Assembly (NCBI GenBank): GCA_004347965.1
Contig: QNVF01000013.1
Location: 1-32,026, forward strand
Reading direction: 5' to 3'
Length of the DNA: 32,026 bases
Source of the DNA: Candidatus Nezhaarchaeota archaeon WYZ-LMO8
Lineage (GTDB): Archaea; Thermoproteota; Methanomethylicia; Nezhaarchaeales; WYZ-LMO8
Of the stretch, positions 19,401 through 32,026 are shown piece by piece. The first letter of the stretch is position 1, and every line of letters begins with the position of its first letter. Under the pieces are notes generated by a model that did no database searches, was not told the origin of the DNA, and saw nothing but the letters and a program-made list of their open reading frames with translations. The translations under genes and the position numbers were made by a program.

Positions 19401-19487
19401 GAATAGAATTCCCGCTTACGAGATAAAACTAGCGTGTCATAGAAAACTTAACATTTAAGAGTATGCTCTAAAATTCACAAAAAACAA

Positions 19488-19589
19488 GGCCCGGTCGTAT
19501 AGAGGCCTGCCTGCGTGGGAGCCGTACAACCCGGTCAAGTATCCCGGCCTTTCGAGCCGGAGACCCGGGTTCAAATCCCGGCCGGGCCA
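19488..19589 (+). tRNA. tRNA-Glu (anticodon TTC) with a D-loop intron
   Basis: Cloverleaf read from the sequence: acceptor GGCCCGG (19488-19494) with CCGGGCC (19582-19588), D stem GTAT (19497-19500) with GTAT (19539-19542), anticodon stem CCGGC/GCCGG around CTTTCGA with anticodon TTC at 19551-19553, and T arm CCGGG-TTCAAAT-CCCGG. Discriminator A; no CCA encoded. The gene is 102 bases, 27 longer than expected. The excess lies in the D loop and removing 19503-19529 leaves the usual loop AGCCCGGTCAA. A TATA-like TTTAAGAGTA is at about 19455-19464. Confidence 0.92.
19503..19529 (+). other. Predicted 27-base tRNA intron in the D loop (between positions 15 and 16)
   Basis: A bulge-helix-bulge folds around it. 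Exon GTAT (19497-19500) pairs with intron GTAC (19524-19527), giving the 4-bp central helix; the two 3-base bulges are AG|A (19501-19503) and AA|C (19528-19530). The inner helix GGC/GCC (19504-19506 with 19521-19523) continues into a hairpin. The cuts fall at the normal second/third bulge position on both sides. Confidence 0.8.
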
Positions 19590-31949: not shown

Positions 31950-32026
31950 CGGGCCCGCGGGGACTTGAACCCCGGACCTCCAGCTTTCTGCATGAACCGC
32001 AGGCTGGCGTCCTATCCAAGCTAGAC
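31950..32026 (-). tRNA. tRNA-Arg (anticodon GCG) with mini-intron, 5' end cut by the window
   Basis: The minus strand shows D stem GTCT/GGAC (position 10 falls on the last base of the window), anticodon stem CCAGC/GCTGG, T arm CGGGG-TTCAAGT-CCCCG, and acceptor 3' strand CGGGCCC with discriminator G. Positions 1-9 are outside the window. The anticodon loop is 18 bases, and removing 31986-31996 leaves CTGCGGA with anticodon GCG. The acceptor 3' strand is the same as in tRNA-Arg(TCG) at 7651. No CCA is encoded. Confidence 0.9.
31986..31996 (-). other. Predicted 11-base tRNA intron at position 37/38
   Basis: On the minus strand exon CTGC (32-35) pairs with intron GCAG, giving the 4-bp central helix. 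Bulge AA|A lies between that helix and the anticodon stem, and the 5' cut GG|T lies in the terminal loop GGTTCAT. The intron is TTCATGCAGAA. The anticodon stem is the outer helix. Confidence 0.82.

Follow-up and report, generated by a model that had tools for sequence, protein, structure and literature searches.

The window considered here is the whole of contig C5 of Candidatus Nezhaarchaeota archaeon WYZ-LMO8, a stretch of 32,026 bases in a genome of 1.35 Mb whose assembly is fragmented into 78 contigs and 93% complete. On its forward strand, a gene for tRNA-Glu(TTC) can be read at positions 19488 to 19589, with a D loop enlarged by 27 bases. The acceptor stem pairs GGCCCGG (19488-19494) with CCGGGCC (19582-19588), the anticodon TTC lies at 19551-19553, and the two strands of the D stem, both GTAT, occupy 19497-19500 (tRNA positions 10-13) and 19539-19542 (positions 22-25). 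From the sequence and from ARAGORN run on the spliced form, the 5′ exon is placed at 19488-19502 (positions 1-15) and the 3′ exon at 19530-19589 (positions 16-73, with no encoded CCA), the 27 nt between them, 19503-19529, being a predicted intron at tRNA position 15/16. A TATA-box-like element, TTTAAGAG (19454-19461), conserved in all five species of the host's family, precedes the gene by about 30 bases. At its far end (31950-32026) the window holds a tRNA cut by the contig end, with an apparent GCG (Arg) anticodon and an insert in the anticodon loop; as contig C3 ends in the same tRNA sequence (L033), the two contigs probably join there.

Gene finding, copy number and relatives

In its unspliced form the gene yields no tRNA in ARAGORN. 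Following removal of 19503-19529, the program reports Glu(ttc) of 75 nt with the D loop AGCCCGGTCAA, which bears out the sequence-only reading in its claims that the gene is 27 bases too long, with the excess wholly in the D loop, and that cutting at the proposed sites gives a standard loop of 11 bases. The analogous cut likewise yields a tRNA in eight relatives. The Rfam tRNA match covers 19524-19581 only (35.9 bits), the intron GTAC being taken as a false D-stem strand.

An intact second tRNA-Glu(TTC), named beforehand as an observation that would speak against the intron, was sought in the host genome (93% complete) and none was found, the nearest gene being a Glu(CTC) on contig C1; the same search in four relatives, among them one with an assembly of two contigs, disclosed no additional TTC gene. 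These results bear on the possibility that the locus is a pseudogene and that the cell relies on an intact tRNA-Glu(UUC) encoded elsewhere. A second copy could have been missed in an incomplete and fragmented assembly, but none was found in the relatives either, every pair in the exon stems is perfect or G-U, and the exons are nearly invariant across three genera while the flanks are not. A pseudogene is consequently considered extremely improbable.

The insert is identified as an intron by comparative evidence, namely inserts at the same joint in four relatives of the family and intronless genes in sister families that equal the predicted product. Specifically, the family genomes carry 21 (G001), 24 (G002), 29 (G004) and 27 nt (G005) at the 15/16 joint, and the spliced D loop predicted in each family copy, AG[C/T]C[A/C]GG[T/C]CAA, recurs in the glutamate genes of the sister-family genomes G006 and G007, where no intron is present. 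Upstream neighbour genes are shared among the family genomes, with 65-93% protein identity, and the non-coding flanks are largely unalignable (invariant columns make up about 3% of the downstream flank and 4% of the 25 bases preceding the gene). Together with the finding of a single TTC copy, this comparison supports the intron, its position and its boundaries as first proposed from the letters alone. Genome G003 was rejected as a sixth family copy, as only the 3′ half of the gene is present there.

Immediately before that 3′ half of tRNA-Glu(TTC) (G003:C178, near 528-568; L068) lies a serine-recombinase-like ORF, and a 3′ half of tRNA-Gly(GCC) is found in the host genome (C35:8650-8860; L072). 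Both resemble sites at which integrated elements attach. Other tRNA genes of the host genome (L035, L037 and L074, on contigs C3, C1 and C45) seem to carry non-canonical introns ahead of the anticodon as well, namely Arg(CCT), Arg(TCT) and a Trp-like gene with two inserts, the second with an ATGATGA box C-like motif.

The candidate splicing motif and its covariation

The central helix of the candidate splicing motif pairs the D-stem GTAT (19497-19500), as its exon strand, with GTAC of the intron (19524-19527) in all four positions, and the inner helix pairs GGC (19504-19506) with GCC (19521-19523) in all three, both helices thus being present as the sequence-only reading had described them. 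That reading had also proposed two 3-base bulges (an arrow marks the predicted cut). The 5′ site AG↓A (19501-19503) is a true 3-nt bulge, with the cut predicted after 19502, its second base. At the 3′ site AA↓C (19528-19530), with the cut predicted after 19529, a contiguous closing outer helix is missing and the site is loop-like; the outer helix of a full bulge-helix-bulge (hBHBh′) was sought past AA↓C in the sequence and no contiguous pairing was found. In other words, the motif is a relaxed bulge-helix-loop rather than a strict bulge-helix-bulge, since an outer helix is absent outside the 3′ splice site. Relaxed forms of this kind are substrates accepted by some archaeal endonucleases (PMC12397907). 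For the host copy alone, a shuffled intron equals the observed geometry in 0.12% of trials.

Free-energy folding at 37 °C folds even the spliced tRNA wrongly, owing to its GC-rich arms. Since the splicing motif ties up positions 10-13 of the exon in pairs with the intron, it is plausible that the precursor would be unable to fold as a tRNA until cut; the same 5′ strand could equally pair with the normal 3′ strand of the D stem, which weakens this proposal.

The geometry was tabulated for 23 copies of the 15/16 joint, that is, the host copy and 22 others whose geometry is equal or nearly equal to it. All 23 have AG↓N at the 5′ site, three or four of four pairs in the centre and two or three of three in the inner helix, and shuffled introns match the real geometry in 0.03-1.4% of trials per copy. 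The two strands change together: opposite an exon GTAT the intron has GTAC, GTAT or GTGC, or in three-pair form GTAA or GTAG, and opposite an exon GTGT it has GCAC or ACAC, while the inner helix changes on both strands (GGC/GCC, GCT/AGC, GTC/GAC, CTT/AAG, AGC/GCT). In a 9-sequence alignment, the covariation score of centre and inner helix is 0.212, as compared with 0.100 for shuffled partners, and pairing reaches 97.7% in the true register as against 47% or less for slid structures. Counting against splicing, besides the missing outer helix, the centre of G001 and G005 pairs in three of four positions only.

Also weighing against a plain splicing reading is the apex of the intron, CCTGCGTGG (19510-19518), which does not vary among the five resolved species of the host's family, over three genera (relatives' loci L038, L040, L042 and L052), even though the non-coding flanks are saturated. 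Such conservation exceeds what the splicing geometry alone needs, and might be expected of a retained element, that is, of a mature tRNA keeping the insert in an enlarged, structured D arm, where GTAT 10-13 and GTAT 22-25 could form a D stem around it. Retention, however, leaves unexplained the covariation between positions 10-13 and their complement in the intron; moreover, the insert varies from 16 to 51 nt in length, the sister families are entirely without it, and other, clearly separate introns of these genomes are partly conserved too. This alternative is therefore regarded as very unlikely.

Comparison with six other introns of the same genomes also led to the rejection of the apex as a unique functional signal: intron loops vary in the Val, Asn, Ser and Arg genes and are conserved in Pro and in part of Tyr. 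The invariance of the apex is unusual, not unique. The string CCTGCGTGGG is present in tRNA-Leu genes of the same genomes as well, and an origin of the apex from tRNA-Leu is not claimed, as there is no structural correspondence and a shuffled 10-mer matches a tRNA gene in 1.25% of trials. Separately, the intron of tRNA-Pro(GGG) is nearly identical over three genera, with almost exon-level conservation (L031 with L165, L166, L170 and L172).

A further alternative accepts the intron and places the true cut sites one or two bases away from 15/16. The exon and intron borders are indeed alike (GTATAG ... GTACAA in the host; GTATAG ... GTAGAG in G001 and G005), so that an 11-base D loop results from shifted registers as well, and a similar redundancy of the borders has been reported for the tRNA-Glu of Sulfolobus tokodaii (PMC4307357). 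In the host, on the other hand, only 15/16 yields G15 and the AG-starting loop of the intronless relatives, and it agrees with the rule that the cut follows the second bulge base; in G001 and G005 the register shifted by two bases would lead to an identical product. Displaced cut sites are accordingly held to be most unlikely. On the whole of this evidence, the locus is very probably a functional tRNA-Glu(UUC) gene, interrupted at the non-canonical position 15/16 by an archaeal tRNA intron of the protein-spliced type.

Splicing enzymes and proposed mechanism

The host genome has two EndA genes, alpha (185 aa) and beta (178 aa), and a gene for RtcB. EndA alpha aligns with the EndA of Aeropyrum pernix (E = 1e-49), the catalytic Tyr, His and Lys are present, and it has the Crenarchaea-specific loop, in which K40 and K42 align with the loop residues K44 and R46 described for A. 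pernix EndA (PMC12397907); EndA beta is without the catalytic His. From these genes, the host endonuclease is predicted to be of the (alpha-beta)2 type, and enzymes of this type tolerate relaxed motifs and sites in the D arm (PMC12397907, PMC4307357). The endonuclease type and the comparative genomics thus support the route of removal and the Thermoproteota setting that had been proposed at the outset.

In the proposed mechanism, the 5′ strand of the D stem in the precursor (GUAU, positions 10-13) would pair with GUAC of the intron, so that the centre of the splicing motif would imitate the D stem. This pairing would put A-G↓A in a 3-nt bulge below GGC/GCC, and A-A↓C beside the centre on the opposite strand. 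The (alpha-beta)2 endonuclease would then cut at 19502/19503 and 19529/19530, and RtcB would join the exons into a tRNA of 75 nt with the standard D loop AGCCCGGUCAA. The 5′ strand, once freed, would pair with its normal partner (19539-19542) to form the true D stem. Cutting, ligation and their order are inferred.

D-arm introns of archaeal tRNA-Glu that are cut by EndA are already known, and the host intron is real and of a known kind. In particular, the D-arm introns of tRNA-Glu(UUC) and tRNA-Glu(CUC) of S. tokodaii are cut in vitro by the EndA of that organism (PMC4307357). The host intron shares with them the tRNA, the arm, a non-canonical position, a BHB-like motif and the EndA route, which is proven experimentally in S. 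tokodaii; it differs in that the S. tokodaii introns lie at gene positions of about 22-25, close to CAAG in the 3′ portion of the D arm, whereas the host joint is 15/16 and the motif uses the 5′ strand of the D stem. Non-canonical archaeal tRNA introns have been catalogued (PMC4090602, PMC8450103), including more than 100 in Thaumarchaeota (PMC8450103). Like these, the host intron lies at a position other than 37/38, its removal restores a standard tRNA, and it is short, removable by EndA as predicted and of BHB-like geometry, such introns being mostly found in lineages with (alpha-beta)2 EndA. The positions given in the portion of review text available (20/21, 22/23, 25/26, 29/30 and others, closing with "etc.") do not name 15/16, which may have been listed before. 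The 4-bp centre, the cut after the second base of the bulge and the use of EndA and RtcB are common to the canonical 37/38 intron, whose full bulge-helix-bulge has the anticodon stem as outer helix; the host motif, in contrast, takes its centre from a D-stem strand and has no comparable outer helix. Finally, Caldiarchaeum subterraneum, a thermophilic relative within the Thermoproteota, also has D-arm introns (PMC3293823), among others in tRNA-Thr at 24/25, but their gain has been tied to a mobile element, of which there is no sign at the host locus.

Recurrence of the 15/16 joint

In a structure-blind pattern scan of the genomes of the phylum and of GTDB r220, the inserts sort into two classes. 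Class A, at 15/16, comprises L087 (the G004 record), L089 (G001), L088, L090, L091, L097 and L098; class B, whose cut falls two bases later, comprises L093, L094 and L095, and L096 was not assigned to a class. Two hits, L086 and L092, were rejected as introns, the GTATAG lying in the leader. The class B introns of tRNA-Glu(TTC), for example GTATAGCC↓A...AA↓C, have a bulge-helix geometry of their own and occur in other Thermoproteota (the three loci above, G008:C31 and G144:C2). A covariance model built from the class A precursor gave further class A introns in tRNA-Glu of families f48 (both isoacceptors), f45, f25, f69 and f74, and in tRNA-Asp(GTC) of f44. As the model contains the motif, its matches lean toward it, a bias from which the pattern-found copies are free. 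Over all families, intron length at 15/16 is 16-51 nt. In addition, four tRNA-Glu(TTC) genes of other families (L154, L155, L156 and L157) have an insert earlier in the gene, at about positions 9-10 (GCTCCGGTAGAAG...), possibly a third D-arm intron site.

Archaeal amoA in the tested genomes of f48 and f44 identifies these genomes as those of ammonia oxidisers. The f44 introns of tRNA-Asp(GTC) at 15/16 (L137, L139, L142 and L144) suggest that the intron passed between tRNA-Glu and tRNA-Asp, or else that the two tRNAs share a hot spot.

All told, about 30 copies stand at the exact 15/16 joint, across two archaeal classes, a recurrence not found described in the portions of the literature examined. 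It could reflect one old intron or a hot spot; as G006 and G007 are without the intron and G008 has a class B intron instead, losses or repeated gains must have happened. A tentative and somewhat doubtful proposal is that the 15/16 intron of tRNA-Glu is no scattered recent gain: it would be one old intron, or a position-specific hot spot, common to Nezhaarchaeota-type archaea and Nitrososphaeria (including the ammonia oxidisers), once moved into tRNA-Asp and persisting because the D-stem strand supplies half of the splicing motif, with the conserved apex acquired in the host's family.

The recurrence bears on the question whether non-canonical tRNA introns are always recent. Moreover, the copies at this one joint, with no outer helix and a centre of three or four pairs, form a natural series for testing the minimum of the bulge-helix-bulge motif that EndA requires, and as ammonia-oxidising archaea include cultured members, a test of splicing is feasible there. 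As standard finders either miss the gene (ARAGORN) or clip it (Rfam), genomes of the host lineage would appear to be without an essential tRNA.
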